From positions 178,105,956-178,169,955 of the forward strand of contig CP136063.1 of assembly GCA_032622095.1 (NCBI GenBank): 64,000 nucleotides of DNA, in the 5' to 3' direction. The notes beneath the pieces are model-generated. The model was given only the letters and a program-made list of their open reading frames with translations. It did no database searches and was not told the DNA's origin. Each line of letters opens with the position of its first letter. Position 1 is the first letter of the stretch. Shown piece after piece: positions 10,301 through 57,409 of this stretch. The position numbers were made by a program, and so were the translations under genes. Origin of the DNA: Siphonodentalium dalli (Eukaryota; Mollusca; Scaphopoda; Gadilida; Siphonodentaliidae).

Positions 10301-11980
10301 ACAACATCCATCGGGACTCGGGAAGTGCAACTTTTCGTATGTCAGCGACCTGTTGTAAACATCAGAAGTTCCTTGTTTACTTCCACGTTCAGACAAAGAA
10401 GGGGTTAATGCTAGAAATTATCGACCGTACTTCATCAGTAGGGTGACCCAAACGAGATAATATCATAACAACGTCACTCGGGAAGTGCAACATTTCGTAT
10501 GTCAGCGACCTATTGTACACACCAGAGGTCCCATGTTTAATGTCACGCTTCAGGACAAGGAGGGGTTAATGCCAAAAATGTTCGACCATACTTCTTCAGT
10601 AGGGTGGTCTGAAGGAGATAATATCATAACAACGTCCATCGGGACTCGGGAAGTGCAACTTTTCGTATGTCAGCGACCTATTGTACACATCAGAAGTTCC
10701 TTGTTTACTTCCACCTTCAGACAAATAAGGGGTTAATGCCAGAAATTATCGACAGTACTTCATCAGTAGGGTGACCCAAACGAGATAATATCATCATAAC
10801 GTCCATCGGGACTCGGGAAGTGCAACTTTTCGTATGTCAGCGACCTATTGTACACATCAGAAGTTCCTTGTTTACTTCCACGTTCAGACAAAGAAGGGGT
10901 TAATGCTAGAAATTATCGACCGTACTTCATCAGTAGGGTGACCCAAACGAAATAATATCATAACAACGTCACTCGGGAAGTGCAACATTTCGTATGTCAG
11001 CGACCTATTGTACACACCAGAGGTCCCATGTTTAATGTCACGCTTCAGGACAAGGAGGGGTTAATGCCAGAAATGTTCGACCATACTTCTTCAGTAGGGT
11101 GGTCTGAATGAGATCATATCACAACAACGTCCATCGGGACTCGGGAAGTGCAACTCTTTGTATGTCAGTGACCTATTGTACACACCAGAGGTCCCATGTT
11201 TAATGTCACGCTTCAGGACAAGAAGGGGTTAATGCCAGAATTTTTCGACCGTACTTCATCAGTATGGTGGCCCAAACGAGATAATACCATAACAACGTCC
11301 ATCGGGACTCGGGAAGTGCAACTTTTCGTATGTCAGCTACCTATTGTACATATCAGAAGTTCCTTGTTTACTTCCACCTTAAGAAAAAGAAGGGGTTAAT
11401 GCCAGAAATTATCGACAGTACTTCATCAGTAGGGTGACCCAAACGAGATAATATCATAATATCGTCCATCGGGACTCGGGAAGTGAAACATTTCGTATGT
11501 CAGAGACCTATTGTACACACCAGAGGTACCATGTTTAATGCCACGCTTCGGGACAAGAAGGGATTAATTCCAGAAATTATCGACCATACTTCTTCAGTAG
11601 GGTGGTCTGAATGAGATAATATCATAACAACGTCCATCGGGACTCGGGAAGTGCAACTTTTCGTATGTCAGCGACCTGTTGTACACATCAGAAGTTCCTT
11701 GTTTAGTGCCACGTTCAGACAAAGAAGGGGTTAATGCCCGAAATTATCGACCGTACTTCTTAGGGTGACCCAAAAGAGATAATATCATAACAACGTCTAT
11801 CGAGACTCGGGAAGTGCACGTTTTAGTATGTCAGCGACCTATTGTACACATCAGAGGTTCCTTGTTTATGCCACGGTTCAGACAAAGAAGGGGTTATATA
11901 ATGCCAGAAATTACGGCCGTTCTTCTTCAGTAGGGTGACCCAAAATAGATAATATCATAACAACGTCAATCGAGACCGCA
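7326..11980 (+). repeat. Right satellite array, ~28 copies of 167 bp
   Basis: The landmark GTCAGCGACCTATTGTACA recurs every 167 bp (for example about 7831, 7998, 8165 and 8332). Units differ by substitutions and small gaps and fall into a few subtypes. Since 167 is not a multiple of three, the open frames of 60-139 codons shift from unit to unit, so they are not protein genes. The unit is about the length of DNA on one nucleosome. The array lies inside the MULE and is inverted relative to the left array. Confidence 0.97.
8004..9341 (+). repeat. Higher-order repeat, 669 bp (4 x 167)
   Basis: The block from about 8004 is repeated almost base for base from about 8673, a shift of 669 bp or four monomers. 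Adjacent monomers differ more from each other than from the monomer four places away. This indicates a recent four-unit duplication by unequal exchange or replication slippage. Confidence 0.85.
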
Positions 11981-22849: not shown

Positions 22850-22851
22850 TA

Positions 22852-22905
22852 CACATGGTGTGTCCATATAAACATCCAAATGCTTTCTCAAAGTCTAAAA
22901 ACCAC
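22852..22905 (+). pseudogene. POLG: Shrunken copy of POLG exon 1
   Basis: The bases 'acacatggtgtgtccata' match exon 1 at 25365-25382. They are joined directly to 'aaacatccaaatgctttctc', which matches exon 1 at about 25443-25463, so about 60 bp between has been deleted. Together with the flank copy at 22080-22223 this points to a partial tandem duplication of the start of POLG. It cannot encode the protein. Confidence 0.65.
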
Positions 22906-25333: not shown

Positions 25334-25896
25334 ATGAATGACGTCATGAAAAGAGCAGGTGCCTACACATGGTGTGTCCATAGAGCGCTGCACATGTCTC
25401 TCTGTCGTGTAACACCCAACAGCAACCAAAACCTCAATGAGATAAACATACAAATGCTTTCTCAAAACCTAGAACGCCAAATATTCAAATCAAAATCAGG
25501 GAGCTACAGTGAAACAAAATTGCCTCCAGCATCATTAAGCAAGATTAAATCTCATCTGAAAATGTTTGATCTGTGGGACAAGGTTTCAGAAACTCAACCG
25601 GCTGTTGACTTTAAACTGCCGAAATTGTCCGGAGAGAATATCGACGAACATTTCAGGTATATTGCCTCTAAGCAATCAGGAGAGTATAAAAATTTGGCTG
25701 ACAGTCTAAGTATTTGTGATCTTCCTCCAATGCCAGAGTGTTGGAGTTATGTAAATGGTTGGACAAGGTATGATGCAGATGGCTCATCGACCGTTGTTGA
25801 TTACCCGGAGGATGCAGCAGTTGTGTTTGATATAGAGTACCTTGTGAAGGATGGACCTTTTCCTACACTTGCAACTGCAGCTTCTGAAAAGCACTG
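25334..25896 (+). CDS. POLG: POLG exon 1: targeting peptide and Exo I motif
   Basis: DNA polymerase gamma catalytic subunit replicates and proofreads mitochondrial DNA in the matrix. The exon follows the acceptor 'tttcatttctag', with ATG one base later, so an upstream 5' UTR exon is implied. The first ~25 residues (MNDVMKRAGAYTWCVHRALH...) are basic with one early acid, consistent with a mitochondrial presequence; a second in-frame Met is at residue 5. Then come the family's IQML motif, 'HFRYIASKQS' and 'GWTRYDADG'. The Exo I motif FDIE near the end holds the catalytic Asp and Glu. The donor is CACTG|GTGAGT, leaving a split Trp codon. Recognition is firm; the start is probable. Confidence 0.92.
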
Positions 25897-36677: not shown

Positions 36678-36751
36678 GATTCTCTGACGTCACTACTCTG
36701 GAGTAGTGAAATGAGATGCGCGCATATCCTATCTAGAACAGGCCTTCAGTT
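36678..36751 (+). repeat. DIRS left inverted terminal repeat
   Basis: The sequence 'gattctctgacg...ctactctggagtagtg' and on to 'ctatctagaaca' is the inverse of 43351-43426 with a few changes. Confidence 0.8.
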
Positions 36752-36965
36752 CGCGTCAATCCTTAGCTTGCGACAGTTGATCGTTCTCATCTACTTCGAA
36801 CTTCTATTTATTCAATTGCTTTCTCGGAAACAATTTTTATATTACGTTCATAATTCATAATTTTAGCCAGTTCTCTTGCGATAAAGATTATACTTTTATC
36901 GCATTTTTGTTTCCTTTATTTTCGAAATTACGAAACGTTGGCTGAAAACACGTGTTTAACAAAAC

Positions 36966-38036
36966 ATGGCGGACGTTCGAGAAAGTACCGAAAATTTTTC
37001 GGGTAAAATACCAAATAACTCTTCTTCCCGTGGGAAGAAAGGGTCCGCTAAAGACGATAAGTCGAAGAGGGACTCTTTGCCCGTTAACGTTCCACCTTCT
37101 ACTCCTGTGGGTAGTAGTAAAACAGGTGAAAGCTTCAATTGAGAGGCAATTTCCATCCTGCGCGAACTCAGTGCAAACCAGCAAAAACAAACTGATTCTC
37201 TGGAATTACTAACGCACCGAGTCACCGCAATGGAAAACCAGAGTTATAACTATGAACTCTCTGAAATCGACAGCTTTCTCGAGGAGACAGGTCATGATGA
37301 CCAGGAACAGTCTGTGCCTCCTCCACCTCCGACAAAGGTCGGAGGTGGAAAATTCGCTATTCAAATCTGTCGCCAATAAATATGCAAACACGGAACAAGT
37401 GGCCGATGACGTTCATGAGAAATTGGCAGACTTGGTGAATGGTGTGTTTCGTGAGGGTCTACCAGAAGACAAGGTTTCAGAACTCACAAAAGCCATTGTT
37501 CGCCTTGGCAACTGTGGGGCTCTCAAGAAAACTTCAGTTAACCCTGAAATTTGGCGGATATACTTATGCCCAAGACAGGGGCAGAGGACATCAAACTAAG
37601 TCGGATTCAGACTTTGCTTATCAAGGCATCTGTAAACATTACAAAAGTTCTGGACATATCTGGCACTGTTCTGTCTCCAGAGGCCCTTGAAATGACTTCT
37701 GATTCCCTCGCTTTGCTTGGCCACTCCAATCGGCGACTAAATCTCCGTCAAAGGAAGCTTCTCCGGCCAGATCTCGATACCAAGTACACGTCACTGGCGT
37801 CATCAGCTTTGCCGTTCATGGAGCTGCTTTACGGAGATGATATGACAAAAAGTGTGCGAGAAATTCATATGAATAATGTTCAAAAGAACATCGGACGTGG
37901 TTCTGACAAGACCATCGAGGTAGAGGTTATCGAGGTTCTCGTTCCAACTACCGTGGTCACTCGAGTGGTCGAAGCGACAGGCTTGATTATCATCCTTACC
38001 GGCCTCAGTAGCCCACTGGTCCCTCAAAAAACTTGA
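36966..38036 (+). pseudogene. DIRS gag-like gene, broken
   Basis: ATG at 36966 opens a Ser/Lys-rich frame that meets TGA at 37140-37142. It continues in the same frame through a leucine-rich 'LSANQQKQTDSLELLTHRV' stretch to about 37376. Frameshifts near 37350 and 37550 carry the reading into 'LADLVNGVFREGLPEDKVSE' and then 'LNLRQRKLLRPDL...LPFMELLYGDDM', typical of DIRS gag C-terminal regions. At least one stop and two frameshifts disable it. Confidence 0.8.
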
Positions 38037-38246
38037 GGGGGGACACCGGAAGTAACAGATTCGGTGAGTGTTACTAGTGATCTGTGTATTGATTTTTGTG
38101 CGGGTAATATTGCATGTCATTTTGATTAGTGGTGTTTACTCACCAGTGACACCAATATCCTTGGCACGGTTAGGGGTTGTCATCTAGACCTGAAGCCAGG
38201 GTTTGACCCAATTAGGCATGCATGTCCTCGTTACCAATTTTCATCT

Positions 38247-40585
38247 TTGGAATGGGAGACTATTAATTCTGAAATTCACCGATTGAAAACATTCGGTGTT
38301 CTTAAAGAGGTAACCTATAGTCCAACTGAGTTCATCTCGCCAATTTTTCTCCGAAAGAAGAAAAACTCCTCTGAACATAGAATAATTCTGAACCTTACTG
38401 GGTTGAATGAGTTCATTACATATAATTTCAAAATGGACACGTTTACTTCGGTGTTACCACTTATCACCAAGGATTGTGCTCTGGCCAGTATTGACCTGAG
38501 ACATGCATACTATAAGGTTCGCGTTTCCCCCGCAGACCAGCACAAGCTGAGATTCATTTGGGACAACCAACGTTTCCAATATACAGTACTTGCTAACGGC
38601 ATATCGAGTGCCCCCCCGACTGTTCACAAAACTGTTAAAACCAGTTTATGCTGCCTTAAGACAAAAAGGCCACAAAATTAGTGGTTATATTGACGACACA
38701 CTTTTGGTCTCAGAATCTCACGTTGAGTGTGAGAAAAGTATTGCAGTAACAATAAACCAGCTACAAACTCTGGGTTTTTAGCTCAACTTTACTTTGTAAA
38801 GTTTGAGCTATTGCCATGGCTTTGTCGTCCATCGTCCGTGTGTGTGCGTGTGTACGTAAGGCGTCAACAATACAGGCTACAGGTCGTACCTTTGGTCGGA
38901 TCATTATGAAATTTGTCATAGCTGTTGACATCAACATTTAGACCAGAATGATTAATTTTGGGGTCATTCGGAAAAAAAACATGGCCGCCAGCAGCCATCT
39001 TGGATTTCAAAATTCAATCCATTAGCACGGGCTTCAGGCCGTAATGTTTGTCTGATCGTCATGAAATTTGTCATGGATGTTAATATTGACATGTAGATGG
39101 GAACGAGTCATTTTGGGGTCATTCGGCCCAAAAACATGGCCGCCAGCAGCCATCTTGGATTTTACTCTTTGTATGACTAAATTCTTTAGCACGGGCTACA
39201 GGTCGTACTGTTAGTCTGATCATCATAAAATTTATCATGAATGTTAACAATGACATGTAGATGGGAACTAGTCATTTTGGGGTCATTCGGCCAAAAAACA
39301 TGGCCACCAGCAGCCATCTTGGATTTTACTCTTTGTATGACTAAATCTTTAGCACGGGCTACAGGTCGTACCTTTAGTCTGATCATCATAAAATTTGTCA
39401 TGGCTGTTGAAATTGGAATGTAGATGGGAACGAGTCATTTTGGGGTCATTAGGACGAAAAACATGGCCACCAGCGGCCATCTTGGATTTCAAAATTTAAT
39501 CCATTAGCACGGGCCACAGGTCGTACTGTTCGTCTGATCATCATGAAATTTGTCATGGATGATAATATTGACATGTAGATGGGAACGAGTAATATTGGGG
39601 CCATTCGGTCAAAAAACATGGGCTGCCAGCAGCCATCTTGGATTTTACTATTTGTTTTACTAAATCCTTTAGCACGGGCTACAGGTCGTATCTTTAGTCT
39701 GATCATCATAAAATTTGTCATGGCTGTTGAAATTGGAACGTAGATGGGAACGAGTCATTTTGGGGTCATTCGGACGAAAAACATGGCCACCAGCGGCCAT
39801 CTTGGATTAAAAAAATTAATCCATTAGCACGGGCCACAGGTCGTACCTTTAGTCTGATCATCATGAAATTTCTCATGGATGTTAATATTGACATGTAGAT
39901 GGGAACGAGTCATTTTGGGGTCATTCGGCCGAAAAACATGGCCGCCAGCAACCATCTTGGATTTTAATCTTTGTATGACTGAATTCTTTAGCACGGGCTA
40001 CAGGTCGTACCTTTAGTCTGATCATTATAAAATTTTCATGGATATTAACAATGACATGTAGATGGGAACGACTCATTTTGGGGTCATTCGATCGAAAAAC
40101 ATGGCCGCCAGCAGTCATCTTGGATTTTACTCTTTGTATGACTAAATTCTTTAGCACGGGCTACAGGTGGTACCTTTAGTCTGATCATCATAAAATTTAT
40201 CATGGATGTTAACAATGACATGTAGATGGGAACGACTCATTTTGGGGTCATTCGGCCGAAAAACATGGCCACCAGCAGCCATCTTGGATTTTACTCTTTG
40301 TATGACTAAATCCTTTAGCACGGGCTACAGGTCGTACCTTTAGCCTGATCATCATAAAATTTGTCATGAATGTTAATAATGACATGTAGATGGGAACGAG
40401 TCATTTTGGGGTCATTCGGCCAAAAAACATGGCTGCCAGCATTGACTGTAATACATTAAATGATTCACTTTCCAAGTTGAGCTACAGTGTCATTGACACT
40501 TTCATTTCATTAACAAGGACAAATCAGTTCTTGTCCCCACTACGAAAAAATCAATTTTCTGGGTTTTATTATTAATTCTGTTGAT
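38247..40585 (+). pseudogene. DIRS reverse transcriptase, frameshifted and interrupted
   Basis: The fingers and palm begin near 38247 ('LKTFGVLKEV', 'RIILNLTGLNEF'). Palm motif A is 'SIDLRHAYYKV'. A frameshift in the C run at about 38612-38618 leads to 'KLLKPVYAALR' and the catalytic box 'GYIDD' near 38690. The frame then stops at 'LQTLGF', where a 1.7-kb minisatellite element (38780-40506) is inserted. The reading resumes at 40507 with 'INKDKS', followed by an apparent one-base loss in the A run near 40550. Confidence 0.85.
38780..40506 (+). mobile_element. Head-and-hairpin (pearl-like) element inside DIRS RT
   Basis: The head is a palindrome: AGCTCAACTTTAC...GTAAAGTTTGAGCT. The core has about nine copies of ~160-165 bp marked by 'cacgggctacaggtcgta' and 'gccatcttggattttac'. 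At the end 'aagttgagct' repeats the head inverted, followed by the hairpin AGTGTCATTGACACT and the tail 'ttcatt'. Joining 38779 to 40507 restores the RT frame, so the target was TT. The ~160-bp core and layout resemble bivalve pearl elements. Confidence 0.9.
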
Positions 40586-41340
40586 ATGACAGTCACTCTC
40601 CCAACAGATAAAGTCATTATGTTGATAAAAGAGTGTCGCCGCCTGTTGGCCAACTCTAACTGTAATATTTCACAACTTGCTCGTATCCTCGGGTTAATGA
40701 TAGCTAGCTTACCGGCCGTTGATTTCGGTCGACTTCACTACCGAGCTTTGGAAGCCGAAAAAATTCAGGCACTAAAGATCTATAAAGGCAACTACAATGC
40801 AAATATGTCTATTTCATACGAGGCTCGTTTAGAGTTTGATTGGTGGTGTCAAAACCTTTCCATCCAAAGTCGGAAAATTCAACGACCACCTCCAGATATT
40901 ATTCTTACTTCTTACTTTCTGTAAAACTATGAAAAACTGTCATGTTCTCCTCAAGAGCGACAATACATGCACAATTAGCTACATTCGTGACATGGGAGGC
41001 ACTAAATCTCACATGTGTAACAAGCTAGCTTTGGACATTTGGATATTTTGTTGTCAACGAGAGATATGGTTATCTGCCTCTTTTGTCCCAGGTGCACTTA
41101 ATGAAGCAGACATTTGGTCCCGTAAGTTCAATGACAACACAGAATAGCAGCTCCATCCTGCCTACTTTAGAGAAATTGAAAAACTGTTGGGGTTGCCCCA
41201 AACAGACATGTTTGCCTCCCAGCAAAACGCTCAACTTCCCCATTATGTGTCTTGGCACCCTGATCCAGGGGCTGATCATGTTGATGCATTTTCTCTGAAC
41301 TGGACTAACAGTTTCTTTTATGCGTTCCTTCCTTTCAGTT
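40586..41340 (+). pseudogene. DIRS RNase H and connection region, broken
   Basis: The sequence resumes 'MTVTLPTDK', the usual DIRS junction after RT. A frameshift near 40840-40920 leads to 'LKSDNTCTISYIRDMGGT', with the RNase H Asp, and 'SASFVPGALNEADIWSR'. The codon expected to be Trp at 41145-41147 is TAG. 'LGLPQTDMFAS' follows, typical of DIRS. Confidence 0.8.
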
Positions 41341-41559
41341 TGGTGAGCGCAGTAATTCAGAAGTTGAAGAGCGAATCAGGCAGCTGCATCTTGATCGCTC
41401 CAATCTGGCCAACACAGAACTGGTTCAACTGTGTGATGGATCTTCTCGTGAACATCCCCAGGATAATTCCACAAACACCGGGAACTCTGAAGCTTCCTCT
41501 AAAACAGGTAGTGCACCCTCTCAGCAAAACGTTAAATCTGATGGCCTGTTTTCTTTCAA

Positions 41560-43035
41560 ACGATCCCTTGAAAATAGACAATTTTCGGAAAGAACTGCAA
41601 ATGTCATCCTTGCGTTCTGGAGAAGATCTACTAAAAAGCAATACACTGTATACCTTAAGAAATGGTTTCAGTACTGTCATCGGAGGAAACTCTGTGCTTT
41701 TCAAACCTCTTTAAACAAAGCAATGGATTTTTTGGCAGAACTTTTTGAGGCTGGACAAAGCTACAGTTCGATTAACACAGCCAGGAGCGCTCTCTCAGCC
41801 ATTGGTCTTTGTTATGACGGGTTTGCGTTCGGTGCACACCCTCTTGTTATCCATTTTCTTAAAGGCTGTTTTAATTTGCGTCCTCCAACATCTCGCTATC
41901 AGGAAACTTGGGATGTTTCGGTGGTTCTGACTTATTTGAAAAAGCTAAAATTAGCAATACTCATTGCTTTAACTCAGGCAAGCCATTGCCAATCTTTAGA
42001 ATTGTTAAGTTTATGCGGAATGGAGAAGACATCCAAAGCATACAAACTTTGTTATAGTGATATTCTTAAGCAAGCATGACCAGGATCAAGCAATACAGTT
42101 GCTGTTTTGAAAGCTTACCTGCCAGATAGGCGTCTTTCTGTTGTTTTTGTATTGAAGGAATATTTGAGGAGAACTCATGTCATCAGGAATGGCATTACTT
42201 ATTATGCCCCGATCTCCGATGGAGATTTGGGGGTATATAGTGGAGCCCTCCGTCCGTCCGTCCTTCCGTCGAGCCGTCCGTCCGTCCTTCCGTCCGTCCG
42301 TACGAACATTTCAACTCATAACTTTGGTTTCGCTAACTCAATTCAGCTGATCTTTGGTATGCTAATAGACCAGCCGGGGGGGGACAAGATTTCCCCATTA
42401 CTGCGGTTTCGTCCACCCATTTTTTCCAGAGTTACACCCTTTTTGGACTTAGAAAATTCAGGTTTTCTGCTACTTTTTTTGGTTTCCAGATTTTGGATAG
42501 TTTATTTGCAAAACCCGTTTTTTTGTGTATTACCAATATCGCAATACAGGTCAAGGTAAAATTTCGGTTCAATCGGATAATTTTTGTGAGAGTTATGACC
42601 CTTTTTCGACTTAAAAAATTCATTATTTTTTTTAGAAAATTCAGTTTTCCTTCTATTTTTGTGGCACCAGACCAAATTTGAAGCTAATATAGAACAACAT
42701 GTGGCATTTTTATAGCGCTTAACCAGAAAGTTTCTCTGATTGTACAGTCGGGGGCGTTACCTCCGCCCAGCGGTGCACTTGTTTATTTATCAGTTACGTC
42801 AAACCCCATGGACAGATCGCCAGGGGTTCCATTAGCAGATGGCTCCGAACGGTCTTATATTCTGCTGGAATTGACTCCAACAAATATGCCGCTCACAGTA
42901 TTCGTGGTGCTGTTACTTTTCGAGCTTTGTCTAATGCGGTTCTGGTCGCCAATATTCTTGCGGTAGCCGGTTGGTCCACTTCTACAACTTTCGCTAAATT
43001 CTACAATAAACCAATGGAAAGTGGGCCCCAATTTG
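41560..43035 (+). pseudogene. DIRS tyrosine recombinase, broken
   Basis: The N-terminal SAM-like region reads 'KKQYTVYLKKWFQYC' and 'GQSYSSINTARSALSAIG' (41635-41820). A TGA at 42077-42079 replaces a codon just before 'PGSSNT'. The catalytic domain is split at 42203 by a 580-bp insertion and resumes at 42784 with 'SYVKPHGQ', 'SISRWLRTVLYSAGID', 'HSIRGA' (the HxxR box) and 'AGWSTSTTFAKFY' (catalytic Tyr). The catalytic residues are still visible, so decay is fairly recent. Confidence 0.88.
42204..42783 (+). mobile_element. Head-and-hairpin element inside DIRS recombinase
   Basis: The head 'atgccccgatctcc' + 'ggagatttggggg' is palindromic and followed by GTCC/TTCC repeats and about two core copies. 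The end has the hairpin 'gggcgttacctccgccc' and the tail 'cacttgtt'. Joining 42203 to 42784 restores the recombinase frame, so the target was TT. Confidence 0.88.
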
Positions 43036-43139
43036 CAGAGGGTGTCCTACACTGCTAATTTGGTGAGTGGAGTTTAAAAAAAAAAAATTGGCATTTAGAG
43101 TGTTTTTTCTCTTTGTTGAATTTGGGCTTTGAAATCTCA

Positions 43140-43473
43140 TTTCACTACTCCAGAGTAGTGACGTCAGAGAATCCCCCAAATAAACAAGACTTACCTGTAA
43201 GGTGAAGTTTGGTTGGGGATTCTCTAAGTCACGTAACTCCTGGAGTAGTTAAATGCCCGCCCAGTTTCAATAATTTCATTCCTAACTTGTACTTTCCCAC
43301 TCTTTGGCTCACAAGGTGTTATTCAAATTTGAATCCTCACGGCTTTAAATAACTGAAGGCATGTTCTAGATAGGATATGCGCACATCTCATTTAACTACT
43401 CCAGGAGTTACGTGACTTAGAGAATCCCAACCAAAATTCTCTTACCTTACAGGTAAGTCTTGTTTATTTGGAG
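43140..43473. repeat. DIRS internal complementary region and right ITR
   Basis: 43178-43257 and 43388-43473 are inverted copies, including 'gtaactcctggagtag' and 'ccaaataaacaagacttacc'. The right ITR matches the left end at 36678-36751. Confidence 0.8.
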
Positions 43474-44108: not shown

Positions 44109-44188
44109 GAGCTGATGACATATTGTGCCAATGATGTGTTAGCTACTCATAAGGTGTTCAGGGTATTGTGGAAAGAGTTTCCAGAGAG
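44109..44188 (+). CDS. POLG: POLG exon 5: Exo III motif
   Basis: The acceptor 'atctgttttag' opens ELMTYCANDVLATHKVF, the Exo III region with the third catalytic Asp. The donor is AG|GTAAAT, splitting an Arg codon. The 80 bp join exon 6 in phase 2. Confidence 0.92.
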
Positions 44189-44377
44189 GTAAATTCATGA
44201 TTATTGAACATTTTAAGAGTGTAACGGAGAGTGTTAAATTCATTAATATTTTGGCATTTTAAGGATATAATTCAGAGTGGTAAATTCATTAATATTTAAG
44301 ATTTTAAGTTTCCAGAATGATAGATCCAAGAAATGTAAAGCCATCTACACCTACATACCTACATATATTCTGTACCG

Positions 44378-45702: not shown

Positions 45703-45885
45703 GTTTCCTCATCCTGTTACATTTGCTGGTATGCTGGAGATGGGTACTGCATATCTCCCTATTAATGAAAACTGGAAGCGATATATTCACCAATCCAACA
45801 CAAATTTTGATGATCTTCAAAGAGAGCAAAAACAAATGCTGAAGAGACTCGCCAATAGTGCTTGTGAACTATTGGCAGACAACTC
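45703..45885 (+). CDS. POLG: POLG exon 6: end of exonuclease domain
   Basis: The acceptor 'tgttaatacag' opens '(R)FPHPVTFAGMLEMG', a strongly conserved POLG segment. 'YLPINENWKRY' and a Gln/Lys-rich helix follow. The donor is AACTC|GTGAGT, phase 2. The Ser codon is completed by the A at the start of exon 7, 11.25 kb away. Confidence 0.93.
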
Positions 45886-45954
45886 GTGAGTTATCTGTTA
45901 AAGGACTTAAGGCCTTCGAAGTGAGTTCATAACGGGATCTGTGCTGGTGCAGCA

Positions 45955-46142
45955 TTAAAGACCCTGTGCCAGTGCATTCTCTTGTATATGCGAGTCTCCC
46001 ATAGGGAGCCTCGCATATATAAGAGAATGCAATGGCTTACAAGGTCATGGTAAATATTGTTCGGCCAATCTATACTTTTATATATGCAACGCTCCCTATC
46101 GGAGAATCACATATATAAGAGAATGCATTGGCACAGGGTTTT
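45955..46142. mobile_element. Two piggyBac-like palindromic MITE fragments
   Basis: Two hairpins with 'tgcattctctt...tatatgcga' and 'tcgcatatataagagaatgc' arms lie side by side. The family is seen with its outer ends at 57634-57858. Confidence 0.7.
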
Positions 46143-46399
46143 CAAAATTGTTTAGGAAGCTGCAGTCATTAAAGGGTAAATAATATAAATTTTATAAAAG
46201 TTTGTAAAACAATTGTCATTAACAAGAACATGTGAAAATAGATCCACTTTGTTCTCATTTTCATTATTAGTAATTCTTCAATATCGAGATTTCACTCATC
46301 AACACTATTGTTATGTAAACATTACTGTTACAATGGCATTACCAATTTGTCCAATAAAAAAAGTTTCATCAAAAATTGACAGCAAACATTGGAAAATGT

Positions 46400-46600
46400 C
46401 AAAGCATCTATCTATATAAAAGCCAAGTGTTTGTGTGTGTGTGTGTCTAACTTTGTCACGATTTTAGGGCATTTAAAGATATATGACCCTTATGTCCGAT
46501 TGTGGCCAAATTTTGACCATGCCTGGTTGCACGTAGAATATGACACACAAAATTGCAGGCAGATCGGTTAAAGATATAGCACACTTTCTAAGGGTCATAA
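46400..46600 (+). repeat. (GT)n plus dispersed repeat
   Basis: A GT run (about 46432-46446) is followed by ~100 bp ('ttatgtccgattgtggcc') also present at 45265-45350. Confidence 0.7.
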
Positions 46601-47009
46601 AAGCTATATTTTACCTGTAATCATAGCGTGGTGTACTATGGTCAATTTAGGATAAGAGTTGGACCTGGTGGACATAATTAATAGCCTGTATCGATATTAA
46701 TTATTAATATTAATTAATATAAGAACAATGTGTATCTATTTATCCATGTTTTTCTTGGTGATGATGTTTTGACAGACTTTTATAATTGTGCACAATTACC
46801 CACTGCGAGTGCCTTAGGTCCCTTTAAACTTATGATTATTGCTATGTGCAATTAAAAAGTTATTATGCTCTCTGTTAAAGAATATGCTGTCAACTTTTTA
46901 AAAAATGCTCTTGTTCTCACGTGACTATCTGCTTGCTCTGTATTTTCACAAGTCACTATCACTTTTGTTTGTAACAAGTGTCTAGAACTAATTTCGCTAT
47001 TTAGATTGA
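46601..47009. other. POLG intron 6, unclassified part
   Basis: Nothing recognisable. Confidence 0.4.
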
Positions 47010-48292
47010 ATGCTTTGGTAACTTTAACATTTGCTTATTACAGATATCGGGGTGATCCGTGGCTGTGGGATTTAAATTAGATTATTACTAACTTTCATAT
47101 TTGTTTATTATAGATATCAAGGTGATGTGTGGTTGTGGGATTTAAATTAAGATTAATACTAGCTTTCCTGTTTGTTTATTACAGATATAAGGGTGATCCA
47201 TGGTTGTGGGATTTAAATTAGATTATTACTGACTTTCATATTTGATTATTATAGATATCAGGGTGATCCGTGGCTGTTGGATTTAAATTAGATTATTTCT
47301 AACTTTCATATTTGTTTATTATAGATATCAGGGTGATCCGTGGTTGAGGGATTTAAATTAGATTAATACTAGCTTTCATATTTGTTTATTATAGATGTCA
47401 AGGTGATGTGTGGTTGTGGGATTTAAATTAGATTAATACTAGCTTTCCTGTTTGTTTATTACAGATATCAGGGTGATCCGTCGCTGTTGGATTTAAATTA
47501 GATTATTACTAACTTTCATATTTGTTTATTATAGATATCAGGGTGATCTGTGGCTGTTGGATTTAAATTAGATTATTTCTAACTTTCATATTTGATTATT
47601 ATAGATATAAGGGTGATCCGTGGCTGTGGGATTTAAATTAGATTAATACTAGCTTTCCTGTTTGTTTATTATAGATATAAGGGTGATCCATGGTTGTGGG
47701 ATTTAAATTAAATTATTACTAACATTCATATTTGATTATTATAGATATCAGGGTGATCCGTGGCTGTTGGATTTAAATTAGATTATTACTAACTTTCATA
47801 TTTGATTATCATAGATATAAGGGTGATCTGTGGTTGTGGGATTAAATTAGATTAATACTAGCTTTCCTGTTTGTTTATTACAGATATAAGGGTGATCCAT
47901 GGTTGTGGGATTTAAATTAGATTATTACTGACTTTCATATTTGATTATTATAGATATCAGGGTGATCCGTGGCTGTTTGATTTAAATTAGATTATTTATA
48001 ACTTTCCTGTTTGCTTATTACAGATATAAGGGTGATCCGTGGCTGTTGGATTTAAATTAGATTATTACTAACTTTCATGTTTGTTTATTACAGATATTAG
48101 GGTGATCTGTAGCTGTGGGTTTAAATTAGATTATTACTAACTTTCGTATTTACTTATTACAGATATCAGGGTGATCCATGGCTGTGGGTTTAAATTAGAT
48201 TGCTACTAACTTTCATATTTACTTATTACAGATATCAGGGTGATCCGTGGCTGTGGGTTTAAATTAGATTGCTACTAACTTTCATGTTTGTT
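47010..48292 (+). repeat. POLG: Tandem array of POLG exon 7 splice acceptor, block 1 (18 copies)
   Basis: Eighteen units of about 70 bp each hold 'ctttcatatttgtttattacag' type sequence (pyrimidine tract and AG) followed by codons for YQGDPWLW and then 'gatttaaattag' or 'ggtttaaattag'. The AG sites are at about 47041, 47114, 47186, 47253 and every ~70 bp to 48230. In the exon 7 frame all units meet a stop within about 11 codons. Some have 'tatag' or lose a residue. The last complete copies are in block 2 before the real exon. Confidence 0.97.
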
Positions 48293-48617
48293 ATGTTTAC
48301 CCATACCATAGTATAGTAAACATAGTGTCATTGTCCGGATTGACCACTCGTCGTTCGTCCGTCTGTCTGTCTGTCCGTAGACACTTTACGAGTAATGCGA
48401 TAACTCAAACATTTTCTATCCGATCGGAACCAAATTTTGTATATGGGTATCTCCGTCAAATATATCTTGGACACTGAATGAACTAATGGTTATATATTTC
48501 TTGCTTGCAAGATCATAGAAGTCGTTTTAAAAATCGGTACGAAGTACCTACAGTACGCGCACTTGTCAAACATTCCACTTATAATTCTGGACCAATCGTG
48601 TGAGTCCTTTCGCTATA

Positions 48618-48650
48618 GAAGCGATTGACAGGTAAGATTTCGATCCTTTT
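48618..48650 (+). promoter_or_regulatory. Splice-donor-like site in left arm
   Basis: GATTGACAG|GTAAGATTTC is a strong donor consensus. The same site is present, inverted, at about 54895-54905 in the right arm. Transcripts entering the block from either side could splice from it. Confidence 0.4.
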
Positions 48651-48659
48651 AATTTCTTC

Positions 48660-49395
48660 TACGTCGCAAGATAAGTCGCATCTTTCATCTGTTAATTTTT
48701 AATGAACGTTCTCTTTACGATATTGCGAACTCGGTACAGCCTGCGCTGCAGGCTCGGAGTCTGTTGGTGGTCATGCCTCCTCTATTTGTAGTCGCGGCTT
48801 CCACAACCTTCGCAGCGACGAGCAGCGATGAATGTTCTGCAGCAGCTACCGCTGGTCCTGTCTCAGTCCATCCAGGTTCATGCTGTCACTGCACATAGCG
48901 GTTTTTCCGAACCCTTTCTTGCCTTGGCTACCTCATTGTTCCTTGTCGCCGACAAGTTGCATTCATTCGACTGAGTGTTTTGTACAATATTACCTCCGTT
49001 CTTTGTACTTTGAGGTTTCCTCTGTCAGTCTGCTTTCTGCCATATCACATTGCTCTGGCTATGTGCCGCAATCAGGAACTGCTCCTGAATAAGTTTATTT
49101 CGCCTCCATTCTCGCCTCCCTTCTTATCCCGTTGGGGTATTCCAGGTGCTGTTGAGACCAGTCTTTATAGTTTCGGGCCTTCAAATCTGTTAGATTTTTA
49201 TTCAACAATTAGGCCGCTTTTATGAGACAAACCTAGACGTATTATGGACTTGATCGTGTGTGTGAACCTGATAAGTAGTATGCGGGTGCTATATCTCACA
49301 GGGGACTTTAGCGTTCTACTCACTTAGCCGAACATATCATGAATATCGACCGTTCAGCTCCATAGACCCTATCGTCTGAACTACGCACATTTTGA
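48660..49395 (+). other. GC-richer, coding-like stretch, unidentified
   Basis: Between the left arm and 49395 the base composition rises and several overlapping frames exist (48832-49092 and 48980-49225). They contain stops within a plausible common reading and no motif I recognise. A decayed transposon gene is likely. Confidence 0.35.
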
Positions 49396-49403
49396 ATTTT
49401 TTT

Positions 49404-50100
49404 CCCCCGACGTTTCCGTCGGAGGACTATAGAAATGACCCTTGTGCGTCCGTGCGTCCGGGATTGGGTACCTTCATGGTGTAATCAACTCCTCCTACAG
49501 TTTTAAACGTAGAGATTTGAAACTCTGGGATATTGTTCCTAACATGTTGGTGATTTGCAACATCTATATAGCTAATAAAAAATATCATTTTTTCCATATT
49601 TTTTGGGGGGTTTCGACTTAGAAAATTTGGAACATTTTTGCCTTTTGGATGAGATTGGGTACCTTCATGGTGTAATCAACTCCTCCTACAATTTTAAATG
49701 TAGAGATTTGAAACTCTGGGATATTGTTCCTAACATGTTAGTGATTTGCAACATCTATATAGCTAATAAAAAATATAATTTTTTCCATATTTTCAGGGGG
49801 GTTTTTGACTTAGAAAATTTGGAAAAAATTTGCCTTTTGGATGAGATTGGGTACCTTCAAGGTGTAATCAACTCCTCCTACAGTTTTAAATGTAGAGATT
49901 TTAAACTCTGGGATATTGTTCCTAACATGTTGATGATTTGCAACATCTATATAGCTAATAAAAAATATCATTTTTTCCATATTTTTGGGGGGTTTTCGAC
50001 TTAGAAAATTTGGAACATTTTTGCCTTTTGGATGAGATTGGGTACCTTCATGGTGTAATCAACTCCTCCTACAGTTTTAAATATAGAGATTTGAAACTCT
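49404..50100 (+). mobile_element. Head-and-core minisatellite element, tail missing
   Basis: The head CCCCCGACGTTTCCGTCGGAGG is palindromic, followed by GTCC-type repeats and four core copies of ~190 bp starting 'gattgggtacctt' at about 49462, 49652, 49844 and 50034. The frame at 49603-50004 is a translation of the core. Confidence 0.8.
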
Positions 50101-50700
50101 GGTTTAATTTCTTTAACAAAGCGGCCATCGACATTTAAAAAAAATTCTTTAACAAAGCGACCATCGACTTGCCACGTTGTCGGGAGACCTTTTATTACTT
50201 CTAGATTCGGGATGCATCTTTCAGTGACCATCTAACACAATAGGATTTCATCATATAGCGTCTCGGCATTTCATTGGTAGACGTCTAGGCGTCCTGTATG
50301 TAGTCCATTTTGTTATAGTATTTGTCACATCACCGACTTTGACCACAAATATTTTCCAATTCTATGTTATCACTCTGGCCGAGTGTTTTACATCACTTGA
50401 CAGGCGTGATTCTAATTCTACTCCGATTTAGCGATCACCGATTCTCACCTTATTTGCAACATTTAACAATTATTGCCACATGCCCATCGGTGCTTGATAA
50501 TACCAGTTGTCGTGTTATCACAGTTTGTGTAACTTTCTGCTAACCTACGGTATGGGTTCCCTATACCACCACCTGACGAGCGATAACTAAGTTTCACATT
50601 ATTTTGAAACCATGCAGGCCTGTTCATTGCATCACAGATTGGCCGTATGATCAGACAGTGTTCCATTAGCGGTATCAGTTCCTCTCCTTGGTTGACCGTA
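50101..50700. other. Unclassified, weakly coding-like
   Basis: A 27-bp duplication ('ctttaacaaagcggccatcg') lies near 50110-50170. The rest has no recognisable domain. Confidence 0.35.
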
Positions 50701-50729
50701 CACTTCAATTTCCAGTTACTTGGCTTGGT

Positions 50730-51120
50730 GTACCAGAGGCAGCCCTTACCGAAATCACAAGCCCTCTGTAAGCATTCAGGAAGGATTCGAATGCTTACAA
50801 ATGAAGACTTAAATGAATCCTTATCTCAATCAATGCAATGGGCCAGTTACAGGCAAAATAAGCACTCGAAACAGAATTTAGCCCTCAATAGGGCCGACTT
50901 ATTTAAATGAGCTAAGTACTCCCATAAGCACTCGAAGGCTTATTAAGCCTTCGAGGGTTTAGCTCATTTAAATAAGTCGACCCTATAGAAGGCTTGTTGG
51001 TTCCCGTAAGCACTCGAAGGCTAAATAAGACTTCATTATTTGCATATAAGGCTTCGAGGGCTTATATTTAAGGCTTCGAAGCCTTATATGCAAATGATGA
51101 AGGCTTAAATGAAGCCTTAT
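50730..51120. repeat. Cluster of palindromes with 'aagcactcgaaggctta' words, left
   Basis: 'aagcactcgaaggctt' words occur in both orientations and form several hairpins. One pairs 50865-50905 with 50950-50990; another pairs 51040-51060 with 51080-51105. A matching cluster lies at 53750-54060. Confidence 0.75.
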
Positions 51121-51430
51121 GAACCATGTCTCGAATCCTTAAATTGGTCCCCGAATGCTAAAGATTATGGTGAAATGATGGCCTGTTTTCATAGAGTTAC
51201 CTATACTGCATGGAAATTAGGGATAACTCTATGCAGGATGCATGGGAATATGGGTGGTGTCATCAAAATTGGATATCCATTCTGGAGATGCTAGAAATAA
51301 CAAAACAATTATGAAGTGATAACAATTTTATATTTGTGAAATGAACAATTTTGAGTATATATGTATATCAAGAATTTATGTTAGCTGTCACTATCATGTC
51401 CATGTTTAATGCAATTTGATTTATGTACTC

Positions 51431-51540
51431 TCAGGCTCCGTGTAGGTCGCCCCTAGCTAATAAATTGTTTAGGATATCTGTCAATTCCACTGGCGAAGCA
51501 TGCAGTCTCAGTCTTCTTTTCTGGGAGTCGTTTTCAAATT
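51431..51540 (-). CDS. Possible 3'-terminal exon of an unknown gene
   Basis: On the minus strand the acceptor 'tatttctcatttcag' opens an exon of about 36 codons that reads EFENDSQKRRLRLHASPVEL and ends in TGA at 51431-51433. It joins in frame with the candidate 27-bp exon at 52749-52775. The basic 'KRRLRL' could be a nuclear signal. No family is recognised. It lies within the palindrome-bounded region and may belong to that element. Confidence 0.35.
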
Positions 51541-53749
51541 CTGAAATGAGAAATAGTAAACAAATTTTAAATTATGTTTACATCAGAAATAACTGAAATG
51601 ATATTATTATGTTTCATAAAATGAGTTATATGAATGATACAGTTGTTTGTAAATTTATCAACATTGTATTGGACTGAATATTAATATTTTCAGCTAGCAT
51701 TGAACTATTAAAATGCCCAAAAAATGATATTGGTGATGTTTTTTGTGGATTTAACATCCGATAAACCAACCTTTGAGTGATAATCAGTTTATGATATCAT
51801 TATGCAGGCATATCCAAAATTGAGATTAGATAGCTGATTAGATATTCTAAATGCGTGCATTAACTGGAAGGAAATGGTTCAAATAATAAGAAAATAAGAT
51901 ATTCAATTTATAATATAATGCTAGTTTTATAATGCTAATTTAACTTACTTTTTGCATTAATGCCCTTTGCTGTCATTTTCTTGTTAAATAGGAAATCATT
52001 GGACCAGCGATATGGTTTCATATAGGTTCCTATATCAATATTGCTCCTATAGGATATACATCCAACATGGCGGCGCGTCCCGTATCCAATTACGTGATTA
52101 AGAACGCTCTATATTACTAGTTTTGGAACCCATTGGCTCCCCTGCATTTAAATTACCATAGGTTCAAACAAGACGTGTATAATGTACTTGTTCAATATGC
52201 CAACATTATCTTCCTCTGAAATTTATGTTACCATGCATATACTAATAATTAATTAATTATGAATAATAAATAGATTATGTACACTGAAAATTCATAAAAC
52301 ACCAGAAGTCCACACAACCTTTTTAGTATTTACCCAAATATCAATTCATGCAGTTAATTGTCAACAGATGGAGATTGTCAGTTTAAAAATCAATGCACAA
52401 AATTGAGCAGTTATTTTAAAGTCACAGAAAAATTATGATACCATGCATCTATTTAATGCTGAATTTTTAAAATAACAGTTAAATAGATGGTATAATTATT
52501 TTCTTTGCTGACCCCAACATTATTTTTGTAACTCCATGCAAGTTGTAATGCTGACAATTAATTGACCTGTATCTGTCAGGCAACCTCAGCAAAATTTCAT
52601 TTTTTTGGAGACCTGTCAATTTAAAATGTTATTAACTATAAATTAAATTGCCAGTGATTTATAATACTTAAATTACGAATAAAGTATAAATATAAACATC
52701 ATCCTATATGTTATAATTTGATAAAATAAATGCAAAGTATATACTCACCTGAATTTAAACTATCAGTAAATAATCCTGAATGTGACATAAAGAAAACCAA
52801 TATAAACCTTGACTTCCCATTGTGAGCTATCCACAGTTTGTGAATTTGAGAAAATTCCATCTGGTCTCAATTTGCATTGAGGGCAAGTCAAGGTGATTAC
52901 ATAACAGGTACTCATAGACACAGAGTAAAGCAGTTGTCCCAATTAAATAGTAGGATTGATTACAATGTTAAAGTGATTTATTACTGGCAATGAGATGAAT
53001 CAGACTTATACAGGGATGTGGCTAGAAGGGTCTCCATTGGGCAAGGGGGTGTTCACCTTGGAATTTCCAACTACATTTCCTCCCTTGCACCAAACCCCCA
53101 AATTGCACCCTCCCCTTTGGGCTTTGCTTGTTCTCAATTTGTACCTTGGATGATATAGACTAGCTGTTCTGAATTATCAGTGGGCCAACATATCTTGAGA
53201 AAAATATAGAGATCTTGAGAAAATGGCAAAATCTCCTATAAAATTATTTATTGCTTTAGGTTGTCTCAAAATGTTCTTATCCATGGCAATTTTCCTATAG
53301 GAAATACGGTCCTATAATTTTCCTAATGTGAATCGTCATTTCCAATATGATTCCTATAGGTTCCTATATGACATTTCCATATGGGGGTCCTACAAGTTGA
53401 AAAATTATTAATTGTATTAATTATTTAATTAATTTTAATTTATTAAAATTCGGATTAAACCACAATATTTACACCATGTGAAAGCTTGACAAATTCTGAA
53501 TATTTTCAAATGTATATTGCCAAACAAATTGTTAAAACTACAAATTTGCCAAATAATTATTAATTTTTCCATATATTTCTCCATGTTGGACTTGGTTAAT
53601 TTGCAGCTTCAGATTCAGAACAGTTTTGTATTGAAATATTCTAAGTCGAGCATCGAGGGCTAAGAGGCCAACAATATATTGAAGCCTTAATTTGAATGCT
53701 GATTTTAGAGTCATATGTCTGGCTGAAGTCTAAATTTTATTAGTTAACA
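51541..53749. other. AT-rich interval, no confident gene
   Basis: Strongly AT-rich, apart from a short 'catggcggcgcgtcccg' stretch near 52066. Words like 'ttcctatagg' recur at 52027-52055 and 53288-53365. Confidence 0.4.
52749..52775 (-). CDS. Possible 27-bp micro-exon of the same unknown gene
   Basis: On the minus strand it is bounded by 'tatgtcacattcag' and a good donor, CAG|GTGAGTAT. Read with the exon at 51431-51540 it gives LFTDSLNSEFEN without a stop. Splicing is inferred only. Confidence 0.3.
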
Positions 53750-54060
53750 GAAAATGTTAGCCTTCGCCACAAGCCCTCATTTTCCAGAGTGCTTATGTGG
53801 GAGACCTAAGGATTCGGTTCCTTATCGAGTGCTTATACCTGCACTGCATCTTAATCACTCGAGTCCTAAGCGAGTGCATTCGAGTCCTAAGCGAGTGCTT
53901 ACTGTGATCGATATAATCACTCGAGTCCTAAGCGAGTGCTTACTGTGATCGATATAAGCACTCGAGTCCTAAGCGAATGCTTATTGTGATTGACATAAGC
54001 ACTTGAATCCTTGGCGAATCCTTGTTGAAGGCTTATTAAGCCTTCATGCTCGGTAAGGGA
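53750..54060. repeat. Cluster of 'cgagtcctaagcgagtgctta' motifs, right
   Basis: About five near-identical units of ~35-45 bp contain 'tcctaagcgagtgctta' and 'tgatcgatataa', ending in 'aaggcttattaagcctt'. It shares the 'aagcactcga' word with the cluster at 50730-51120 in mirrored order, as subterminal transposase-binding arrays do. Confidence 0.75.
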
Positions 54061-54700
54061 GGCACTCTTTCCGTCTTGGTCCCCTCCCTTATGTGTATGT
54101 TTTTTCTTTCCATGGACATTATTCCCAGTGCTCTGGACATAATCAGCTCAACTCCGTCATGTTTTCCTGGTGTATACCTGGTCCCCCCCATTGGTCTGGG
54201 CCCAACGGTTTCTCATATCTCCCCTGGGTCTCTCGGTCGGGCTCAAAATACTGTCAAGTTAGTCATACCGCCCTGCGCATTGACTCATTTTGCGAAATCC
54301 ATTATGAGCATTGATTCGTCGTTTCTGGGGGAGGGGGGGGGGGGGGGCTGCTTCATCCTGTAAGGGGGGGGTAGGTTCCTTTATCCTATTAGGTACATGA
54401 ACAAATGAGTTATCTCCCTTGCCTATGACCAATGTTTATCCTGGACACCTTCACCCTGTGATCATTACTAGTAGGGCACATGAAGTACGTGGTGTTTCCT
54501 TTTAGGAGGCTCAGTTGTTTTTGAGTTTATCTGAACTATTACATATGGGACACAATGATCTATTTTTTGGCACATGTCTACCAAGAAATCTTTTTGGTAC
54601 AGGATGCAGGTCTCTTCTTCTTCAGCAGGTGGGTTTCATGGACATAGTCGGATTATCTGCCTCGTTGCCTCCTCCTCTTCAAGAATTCTAATTATAACCA
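54061..54700 (+). other. Coding-like stretch, unidentified, with G run
   Basis: The frames at 54046-54363 and 54093-54314 look partly protein-like but match nothing I know. A poly-G tract is at 54328-54347. Probably the partner of 48660-49395 in a decayed transposon gene. Confidence 0.3.
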
Positions 54701-55100
54701 TTAGTTCATTCGGTGTCCCAAGTTATATTTGACGGAGATATAATTTTTTTTTACCCAAAATATGTATCTCCTATAATAAATATCTTGGACACTGAACACA
54801 GTAAGGGCCCTCCCAGTTGGGATCAACATTCCCGCCCCGCGCACTTGGTCAAACGCATCAAACACACAGGAGGAAGAAATTAAAAAGATCGAAATCTTAC
54901 CTGTCAATCGCTTCTATAGCGAAAGGACTCACACGATTGGTCCAGAATTATAAGTGGAATGTTTGACAAGTGCCCGTACTGTAGGTACTTCGTACCAATT
55001 TTTAAAACGACTTCTATGATCTTGCAAGCAAGAAATATATAACCACTAGTTCATTCAGTGTCCAAGATATTTATTATAGGAGATACATATTTTGGGTAAA

Positions 55101-56890
55101 AAAAATTTATTTCTCAGCCCAAAATACAGATCGAGTTCGAATTTGTGTTTGATCCGAGTTTTTGTTACAGAGTTATGGCCCTTTTTCGACTTAGAATTCA
55201 CGCATTATGCCATAACTCAAACATTTTTTATCTGATTGGAACCAAATTTGGTATGTGAGTTTCAGAGCCCAAAATACAAATCGAGTTCGAATATGGGTTT
55301 GGTCCGATTTATTTTAAAGGAGTTATGACCCTTTTTTTGAAGAAAAAAAAATCATCCAATGCTATAACCGAAGTATTTTTTGTTCGATTGTGTTCATATT
55401 TGATATTTAGGTTTATGATGACACACCCATCACCTGTAAAGTTTTTGGTATTGATTGGTTGATCGGTTTAGAAAATAATTAACCCTTTACACACATACTA
55501 TCCAATGCAATAAGTTGAACATTTTTCTTCTGATCTGCCTCATATTTCTTACCTAGGTTTTTCTTAGCACGTTCTTCGTCTGTATGGTTTTGGTTTTGTT
55601 TAATTAACCCTTTTCACTCTTATGTTTACTTAGAATTCACCCAAGCTGCTATGACTCAAATCATTTTTCATCTGACTAACACCAAATTTGGTATATGAAT
55701 TTATCACCCCTAAATACAGATCGAGTTCGAATATGGGTTTGATCTGATATATTTTAACAGAGTTATGACCCTTTATAATTCAAGTAATTACTGCTAGGAA
55801 TTTGAAGAGAACATATCCCACAGACCATGTGTGTTATTGAAATGAGTTAATTATCACTATGGACATTAGATACTACCTGCTATAAAGCCTGATAGTGGTA
55901 CCACTGGCTGGCAGGACTTGTTTACCAGATGTCAAACTGTAATTGATGACTCTCTGGTTGAGTTCTGTTTTCTGTGCAATATTAAGTTAACCCCTTTGTT
56001 GAAACAGGTTCATTACATTAGTTAATGTACACACTATATCATGACACCTATTCTAAAATAATAAATTGGAATAGTCCATTGTTACTTTGTAGGGATGTTT
56101 TACAGACATTGTGGTTTACAGACACTGTTGTCTTATCTTAGACAAAAAATAATCTACACATTCCTTAGTTCCATGATATGATGTCATTGAAAATGATTAA
56201 CCCTCTCCACACATCATATGGTTTCATGATGCTTTTCATTTGATCATTCTCCTATTTTATGTCCAGGTTGATGGTGATCCACTTTTGATTTGCATGAATT
56301 TGGGATTAAAATTAAACCATTCCATAGACACATATTATGCAATAGACAGATATAATATTATCCCTTTCACTTTGGGCCAGGTTCAGTAAGGGTTTAAAAA
56401 AATCACCAATCGAATATTCATCATTAGAGGAAATGTCTTATTTTGAAATTCCCTCAATTGCATTTGGGCTCCAGGATAATATTAATGGTGCTGGTGTTCT
56501 TGAGACTGACTTATTGTATGGGTTTCTAAATCCAATGACATGCTTTTTATAGACTATTTTGTGTTTATCAGTTCATTAGTTTGGGTAAGATTAAACCCAT
56601 TCTATCCGATTTGATAACTCAAATATTTCCATTGATTATGTTTATAGTTCTTGGCATAGTTGACGATAACACACCCCTAACCTGCATAGTGAGGGTCATT
56701 TGGTTTATTTTCTTAAAAATATTAACATCCTCCACCAATCCTGTTGACACAATGTGATAACTAAATATTTTTCACACTTTCACTATATAAAGTGTGAATT
56801 GTTGAAACTTTTGCACTCATGAAAAGGTTGGTGTAAGGATTTATAAAATTTATAAAAATGGCTAATTGCTATCGCCAAGGTAAGGGTTAA
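55101..56890 (+). repeat. Diverged core copies of the 8.6-kb element
   Basis: Units with 'cataactcaaacatttttt', 'aaatttggtatgtgag' and 'gttatgacccttttt' recur with increasing decay from 55101 to about 56760, ending in the hairpin tail at 56885-56920. Confidence 0.65.
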
Positions 56891-56920
56891 ACATCTGCCG
56901 ATCGTGATCGGCCTCTCGTT

Positions 56921-57135
56921 TATTACAGATATCAGGGTGATCCGTGGCTGTGGGTTTAAATTAGATTATTACTAACTTTCATGTTTGTTTATTACAGATA
57001 TCAGGGTGATCTGTGGCTGTGGGTTTAAATTAGATTGCTACTAACTTTCATATTTACTTATTACAGATATCAATGTGATCCATGGCTGTGGGTTTAAATT
57101 AGATTGCTACTAACTTTCATGTTTGTTTATTACAG
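56921..57135 (+). repeat. POLG: Tandem array of POLG exon 7 splice acceptor, block 2
   Basis: Three more ~70-bp units with AG at about 56927, 56997 and 57066 continue block 1 and lead into the true acceptor at 57134-57135. Their coding part ends in 'gtgggtttaa', a stop. Confidence 0.96.
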
Positions 57136-57409
57136 ATATCAGGGTGATCCGTGGCTGTGGGATTTAGATTGGAAAGTTAGCAGATACAAATTACTAGCAC
57201 AGAAAGAGAAAAAGGTTAAAAAACTAAAAAAAGGATCAGAGCAAATCATAGAAGAAAATTCTGATGACGCATTGATGCTAGATCCATCCACTCCCAGAGA
57301 TAAGGAAGACTTTGCCTCACTGTCTGAATTCAGAAAACAAAACTTAAAACATATGAAGAAAATGAGAAGGGATTTTGAAGATTCAATCAAGTATGGCAGT
57401 GATAATTTG
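57136..57409 (+). CDS. POLG: POLG exon 7: spacer region
   Basis: The acceptor 'gtttgtttattacag' is the last of about 22 tandem copies. Only here does 'gggatttagattggaaag' read through: YQGDPWLWDLDWKVSRYKLL. This matches the family's 'DPWLWDL' segment after the exonuclease domain. A Lys-rich stretch and an acidic Ser-rich linker follow, as expected for the variable spacer. The donor is TTG|GTAAGA. The 274 bp complete the Ser codon of exon 6 and end in phase 0. Confidence 0.94.

Follow-up and report, generated by a model that had tools for sequence, protein, structure and literature searches.

Background

Tandem repeats that straddle the border between an intron and an exon have been described in amphioxus as 'mirages', which are minisatellite-like tandem duplications of the intron-exon boundary with units of 10-160 bp, found in BflGb6, BflGb9, Adh3, TnC and PGBD5 (PMC3087553, PMC3902484). 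The BflGb6 copies are given as 81-100% identical, with 6 and 3 copies in haplotypes (PMC3087553, PMC3902484), and PGBD5 has 2 or 7 units of 60 bp and 3 or 6 units of 108 bp, depending on the assembly (PMC3902484). Variable internal tandem repeats at human exon-intron boundaries can, according to that study, activate cryptic sites and create introns (PMC2812944). A 7-bp intronic repeat has been tied to splicing in dog LHX3, and a paper on Drosophila treats intron gain via tandem duplication. Here we describe an array of this kind at the border between intron 6 and exon 7 of POLG, the gene for the mitochondrial replicase DNA polymerase gamma, in the scaphopod mollusc Siphonodentalium dalli. The window, i.e. 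the whole 64-kb stretch that was analysed (64,000 nt of contig CP136063.1), is part of one 301-Mb contig in a genome of 2.23 Gb and 9 contigs. In our view the array is probably a mirage that arose as a minisatellite across the boundary of intron 6 and exon 7 in a working POLG and has been passively tolerated there.

Structure of the acceptor array

By the gene model, coding exons 6 and 7 are separated by an intron 6 of 11,250 nt (45886-57135). The copies and the exons that frame them are arranged as follows, with ^ at the splice point.

45703..45885, + strand, POLG coding exon 6 (gene model), ending ...LLADNS in phase 2, donor TC^GTGAGT
47019..48292, + strand, 18 tandem copies of the acceptor and first codons, AG ends at 47043, 47113, 47184 ... 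48231
56918..57126, + strand, 3 more copies, AG ends at 56928, 56997, 57066
57108..57135, + strand, true acceptor (copy 22), with TACTAAC at -28..-22, a Y-rich tract and CAG at 57135
57136..57409, + strand, POLG coding exon 7, 274 nt, beginning YQGDPWLWDLDWKVSRYK..., donor TTG^GTAAGA

When both strands are scanned without gaps, TTATTAYAG^ATAT... occurs exactly 22 times, always on the + strand, and no copy departs from the 48-position core at more than 11 positions; the next best placements have at least 19 mismatches on the + strand and at least 22 on the minus strand. TRF reports two repeats, one of 18.2 copies with period 70 at 47019-48292 and one of 3.7 copies with period 69 at 56918-57170. 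The scan and TRF thus recover the 18 + 3 copies that an earlier note on this DNA had counted ahead of the true acceptor. The period of about 70 bp given there fits the first part of the array, but drops to 69 in the second, and the array, which it drew from 47010 to 57135, does contain the repeat copies, but its middle (48293-56917) is an insertion. In a complete unit, a TACTAAC-like motif and a pyrimidine-rich tract lead to YAG, which is followed by some 11 codons of exon 7 and a stop-bearing linker; the unit had rightly been seen as POLG's own acceptor with its first codons, although these number about 11 and not about 8.

The repeat unit spans the intron-exon boundary and the array adjoins the authentic boundary, from which alone a normal exon proceeds. 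When exon 6 is joined to each of the upstream AGs, all 21 copies meet a stop somewhere from the 3rd to the 13th codon, and an open frame is obtained only from copy 22 (AG 57135), where it runs into the WLWDLDW region of exon 7, which aligns, with variants, in 41 homologues. On this point the earlier note was correct: every upstream copy meets a stop and only the last leads into a full exon. Recursive splicing through the copies was rejected, the AG being followed by AT, not GT, in 22 of 22 copies.

All 22 copies keep the AG, in every case as YAG, and TACTAAC is perfect in 10 of the 22. Complete copies differ from each other at 12.7% of sites on average. Of the 20 complete copies, 5 have G in place of the branch-point A at -23, and copy 19 (AG 56928) had its branch-point region removed by the insertion, while copies 16-18, 20 and 21 carry both TACTAAC and CAG. 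From the branch-point motif to exon position +14 (-28 to +14), copy 20 matches copy 22 letter for letter, and hence the choice between them must come from context.

The POLG gene

The assignment of the gene to POLG, as first proposed from the letters and translations of the window, is supported by PDB matches to human DNA polymerase gamma, by a tblastn scan and by the scoring of homologues. The gene model places it on the + strand at 25334-63725, with nine coding exons, 644 codons and GT-AG at 8 of 8 junctions; it begins at the first ATG, and where the ninth exon ends on its 3' side was decided by hand. Among 7993 candidates scored, 1228 are homologues, and the three best of these, from a chiton, an abalone and Solemya, show 48-55% identity. 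In a tree of 42 proteins the window POLG lies within a mollusc fork (28 rows, support 90/94, which is under the tree's star mark) and outside the gastropod plus bivalve fork (95/86), with the chiton nearest by path; the smallest starred set that contains it is formed by 20 rows outside the gastropod plus bivalve fork. The gene continues downstream of the window (L005-L008), where tblastn adds nine matches to the chiton protein and ten to the abalone protein. These extend as far as residue 1110 or so of the chiton POLG (1159 residues), with parts between the matches uncovered, and a printed chiton match to residue 1144 crosses a stop, probably entering an intron.

We give next to no credence to the idea that the window holds a POLG pseudogene while an intact copy resides elsewhere. 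No point in its favour was found; the frame is open and the junctions are canonical over the nine modelled exons, exon matches follow downstream, and the exonuclease domain of the family matches the 2.23-Gb genome at the window locus in 4 of 4 cases (7 candidates, 7 scored). The POLG locus thus appears intact and working, and is apparently single-copy.

Several other elements were seen in and around the gene. A partial, decayed copy of the first coding exon lies at 22850-22900, 2.5 kb upstream, with matches at 25364 and 25442. Downstream, the 34 nt directly upstream of the exon match at L006:2366 (L006:2326-2359) recur at L006:3677-3710, about 1.35 kb further on, with 97% identity. Intron 2 contains the remnant of a hAT transposase C-terminus (PF05699, 29856-30542, - strand). 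Intron 4 contains an element at 36678-43173 that is bounded by a 40-nt inverted repeat; it matches a reverse transcriptase below the Pfam cut-off and, slightly over the cut-off, the N-terminal part of a phage integrase, and it resembles DIRS/Ngaro elements. The window has no Rfam match at the gathering threshold.

Origin of the array and choice among its acceptors

The features that bear on how the array arose and was later divided are these.

46999..47008, + strand, 10-mer ATTTAGATTG in the intron beside the array start, proposed left duplication breakpoint
57162..57171, + strand, 10-mer ATTTAGATTG within exon 7, proposed right duplication breakpoint
48293..56917, + strand, repeat-rich insertion of 8.6 kb that divides the array, with a possible 3-bp target duplication, GTT (by eye)
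48462..48659, + strand, left arm (198 nt) of an inverted repeat, 98% complementary to the right arm
54873..55070, - strand, right arm (198 nt) of the inverted repeat, 98% complementary to the left arm
48631..48632, + strand, donor-like site CAG^GTAAGA, score 11.0, with 48631 the last exon-side base

The first tandem duplication may have arisen between the two ATTTAGATTG 10-mers, across the intron 6/exon 7 border, and unequal exchange could then have brought the array to 22 copies. The pair predicts a unit of 71 bp, and units of 70 and 69 bp are seen; random stretches of equal sizes shared a 10-mer in 71 of 20,000 draws. An exact block of 129 nt, present in the array of the one haplotype covered at a shift of 699 (47150 and 47849), points to a later block duplication within it. 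The insertion stands between copies of the 69-bp type, which suggests that the array was contiguous beforehand and that the 8.6 kb split it afterwards. Repeats of the insertion recur in the window at 20.6, 31 and 59.7 kb, and a search for a transposase in it gave 0 Pfam hits among the 7 open reading frames chosen.

Arrays are difficult to assemble, and the exact 129-nt block at shift 699 speaks in the same direction; that the array is an assembly artefact is nevertheless very improbable. Complete copies differ at more than a tenth of their sites, the window contains no N, the array is placed within the one 301-Mb contig with non-array anchors on both sides, and exons of CCT chaperonin genes on other contigs carry duplications of this type on a smaller scale.

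In the mirage reading, the last copy would be the one mainly used, being alone joined to the complete 274-nt exon 7 with its donor (exon definition), and the array could be passively tolerated because only this copy is attached to a complete exon. The upstream copies would be passive bystanders, leaking at most a few stop-containing, decaying transcripts. The distal 18 copies lie 8.9-10.1 kb upstream, and exons that started at copies 19-21 would measure 343-481 nt. Under the usual rule, stop-containing products of the upstream sites are expected to undergo nonsense-mediated decay (NMD).

A number of points weigh against this account. Use of the last acceptor is deduced from frame and homology alone. 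Upstream sites look usable, because TACTAAC is perfect in nearly half of the copies and YAG is present throughout; three copies lie just 69-207 nt upstream of the true AG, in the ordinary range of exon sizes, and the strong donor-like site 400 nt past copy 18 could define a poison exon. As for the origin, the two stretches compared for ATTTAGATTG were picked after the match was noticed, and the 10-mer model fits imperfectly, since the duplication junction shows a small deletion and some 5 additional bases.

In a second reading, the array has no adaptive function but is leaky: upstream acceptors, mainly those of copies 18-21, would be used at a real rate, giving exon 7 forms extended by 69, 138 and 207 nt together with a 400-nt poison exon (48232-48631), all removed by NMD, and the array would be a tolerated load on POLG expression. 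The poison exon is a candidate proposed from the letters, formed by copy 18 and the donor-like site at 48631, with a stop at the 11th codon; it has a spare acceptor and a donor-like site, and its inclusion would give a stop. The donor at 48631 scores above that of exon 7 (11.0 against 6.7), and two further strong donor-like sites stand in the insertion at 54628 (11.4) and 56879 (11.3), all being matrix scores. The identity of copy 20 with the true site from -28 to +14, the TACTAAC and CAG of copies 16-18, 20 and 21, and the early stops of the upstream products speak for leakage as well. However, the donor at 48631 sits inside the 198-nt inverted arm, which could pair and hide it, and amphioxus mirages are reported to splice regularly despite splice signals in many units (PMC3087553, PMC3902484). 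We regard appreciable leakage as unlikely, though it deserves some weight.

Duplicated splice junctions elsewhere in the genome

POLG has a second array over an exon boundary.

44182..44308, + strand, 46-bp unit in 2.8 copies, covering the coding exon 5 donor

Its third copy retains GTAAAT. The share of sequence in tandem repeats is 21% for the window and 18% for the POLG gene span, and with the latter figure, these arrays included, as the background of a binomial test, arrays are not enriched at the POLG junctions in the window (2 of 16, at 44188 and 57136; P of at least 2 = 0.81). None of the ten downstream POLG exon matches touches a TRF array, which brings the tally for the whole gene to 2 of about 36 junctions. 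In twenty spaced 10-kb samples of the same contig, repeat coverage has a mean of 18.5% and a median of 8%, and arrays with at least 15 copies of a unit of at least 40 bp occur in 4 of the 20. The window also contains a 167-bp minisatellite of 26 copies (7625-11976), the unit of which is by eye related, reversed, to the array at 3086-4165.

Beyond POLG, the survey covered one gene family, in this genome only: 32 of 53 exon-level matches to the CCT chaperonin family (PF00118), in stretches of 635-1055 bases each, two long intron-poor matches and most partners of near-identical pairs being omitted. When these were compared by blast and read by eye, a duplicated edge was seen in 7 of the 32 exons (7 of 64 edges).

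L034:333-434, acceptor duplication
L046:187-375, acceptor duplication, degenerate
L058:89-347, acceptor duplication
L051:455-616, donor duplication
L055:376-521, donor duplication
L048:403-732, donor in 39-bp units, 2.8 copies followed by a further 5.1 that reach the end of the stretch analysed
L045:379-505, 63-bp duplication at the exon end, donor GAG^GTAAGT

The first added copies of L048 are in frame and stop-free, so its alternative donors could add protein repeats, and the second donor of L045, if used, would add 21 in-frame residues. An automatic test of AG and GT points near the match ends flagged the junction found by reading in five loci (L045, L046, L048, L055 and L058); in L034 and L051, where the junctions fell outside the points tried, it flagged a neighbouring point only. 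A GT that it flagged in L037, 44 nt past the match, and tiny repeats near L036, L038 and L040 were excluded from the count.

Together with POLG in the window, 9 of 80 junctions are duplicated by reading, or about 9 of 100 when the downstream POLG exons are included. Among random points the automatic test found 75 of 400 duplicated, and 43 of 360 when the satellite-like samples L014 and L023 are set aside. The comparison of 9 of 80 (by reading) with 75 of 400 (automatic) indicates that duplication is no commoner at junctions than in random DNA of this genome, and perhaps somewhat less so. Mirages look common here.

The CCT scan yielded two further observations. Two CCT/Cpn60 matches of 1.2-1.3 kb in one open frame (C8:83763210-83764514 and C1:137265288-137266499) are intron-poor copies or retrocopies. 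Matches to CCT exons also occur in pairs with the same or almost the same score, the partners lying 56-169 kb from each other (C7:133433378/133489158 and C1:68370935/68539505); these are segmental duplications or unresolved haplotypes.

Constraint on the copies and the regulatory hypothesis

Among the 20 complete copies, all within one genome, 31 of 54 columns are invariant, and the probability that two random columns are both invariant is 0.32; the invariant AG is therefore expected. Variability by codon position is 0.15 at position 1, 0.14 at position 2 and 0.09 at position 3, and since position 3 is less variable than the other two, there is no coding signature. A coding role of the upstream copies was rejected, given the stops in 21 of 21 and a third position that is not the most variable. 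For selection on the copies as decoys we find neither excess conservation of the splice signals nor constraint by codon position in this comparison of copies within one genome, and the constrained splice signals that a decoy or poison exon would have are not seen. The pattern is taken as neutral drift plus homogenisation.

A regulatory decoy role of the array is possible. In it, the array and insertion would detain intron 6 or divert transcripts, thereby setting the level of POLG, and the length of the array would act as the dial. The 11,250-nt intron 6, with its 21 spare acceptors and strong donor-like sites, would suit such a role, and in OGT intron retention is promoted by decoy exons whose 3' splice sites are bound by U2AF (PMC12017769). 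Yet the splice signals of the POLG copies are not over-conserved, the A at -23 is G in a quarter of the complete copies, and junction arrays are no commoner than duplications at random genome points; we judge a functional decoy to be improbable. The suggestion of the earlier note that the array tunes POLG thus finds no support, either in AG conservation and codon positions or in the 9 of 80 sampled POLG and CCT junctions that are duplicated by reading. A broader version, in which about one in ten splice junctions is self-duplicated with the spliceosome choosing by context, and the POLG array is a copy-number-dependent decoy that sets the replicase level and varies between individuals, has a slim chance of being right.

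Conclusions

The array at POLG is best seen as a mirage that is probably carried passively, and the locus offers a natural experiment in the choice of a 3' splice site among equals, in which the spliceosome is left mainly with position and exon context as cues. Our small survey suggests that splice junctions here undergo tandem duplication at almost the rate of other DNA, making the genome suited to the study of minisatellite-driven exon-edge change and intron birth. Within the literature searched, such changes had been noted before in amphioxus and in human segmental duplications. A literature search by titles and abstract starts, in a limited library and with limited terms, brought to notice no further mirage outside amphioxus. 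What the present case adds is a new phylum within the literature searched, an array of 22 copies that was split in a presumably essential gene, and evidence for frequent junction duplications in this genome.

Three known systems can be set beside this locus. In the human boundary repeats, which lie in recent segmental duplications, at least half alter the coding sequence, whereas the POLG copies remain intronic by the gene model (PMC2812944). The decoy and poison exons of OGT resemble the POLG array in their long intron, extra 3' splice sites with a donor, and early stops; the OGT decoy, however, is experimentally supported, while POLG has 21 tandem copies of its own acceptor with no sign of constraint (PMC12017769). 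The closest likeness is to the amphioxus mirages, in which the units likewise comprise a splice signal and a piece of exon, on the acceptor or the donor side (PMC3087553, PMC3902484). The earlier note knew of no described tandemly amplified 3' splice site of this size in an essential gene; as a claim that there is no precedent this does not stand, since the mirages are of the same kind. The POLG array differs from them in its 22 copies, its mollusc host and its division by an 8.6-kb insertion. It is a larger case of the amphioxus-type mirage, with more copies than in the amphioxus cases cited here.

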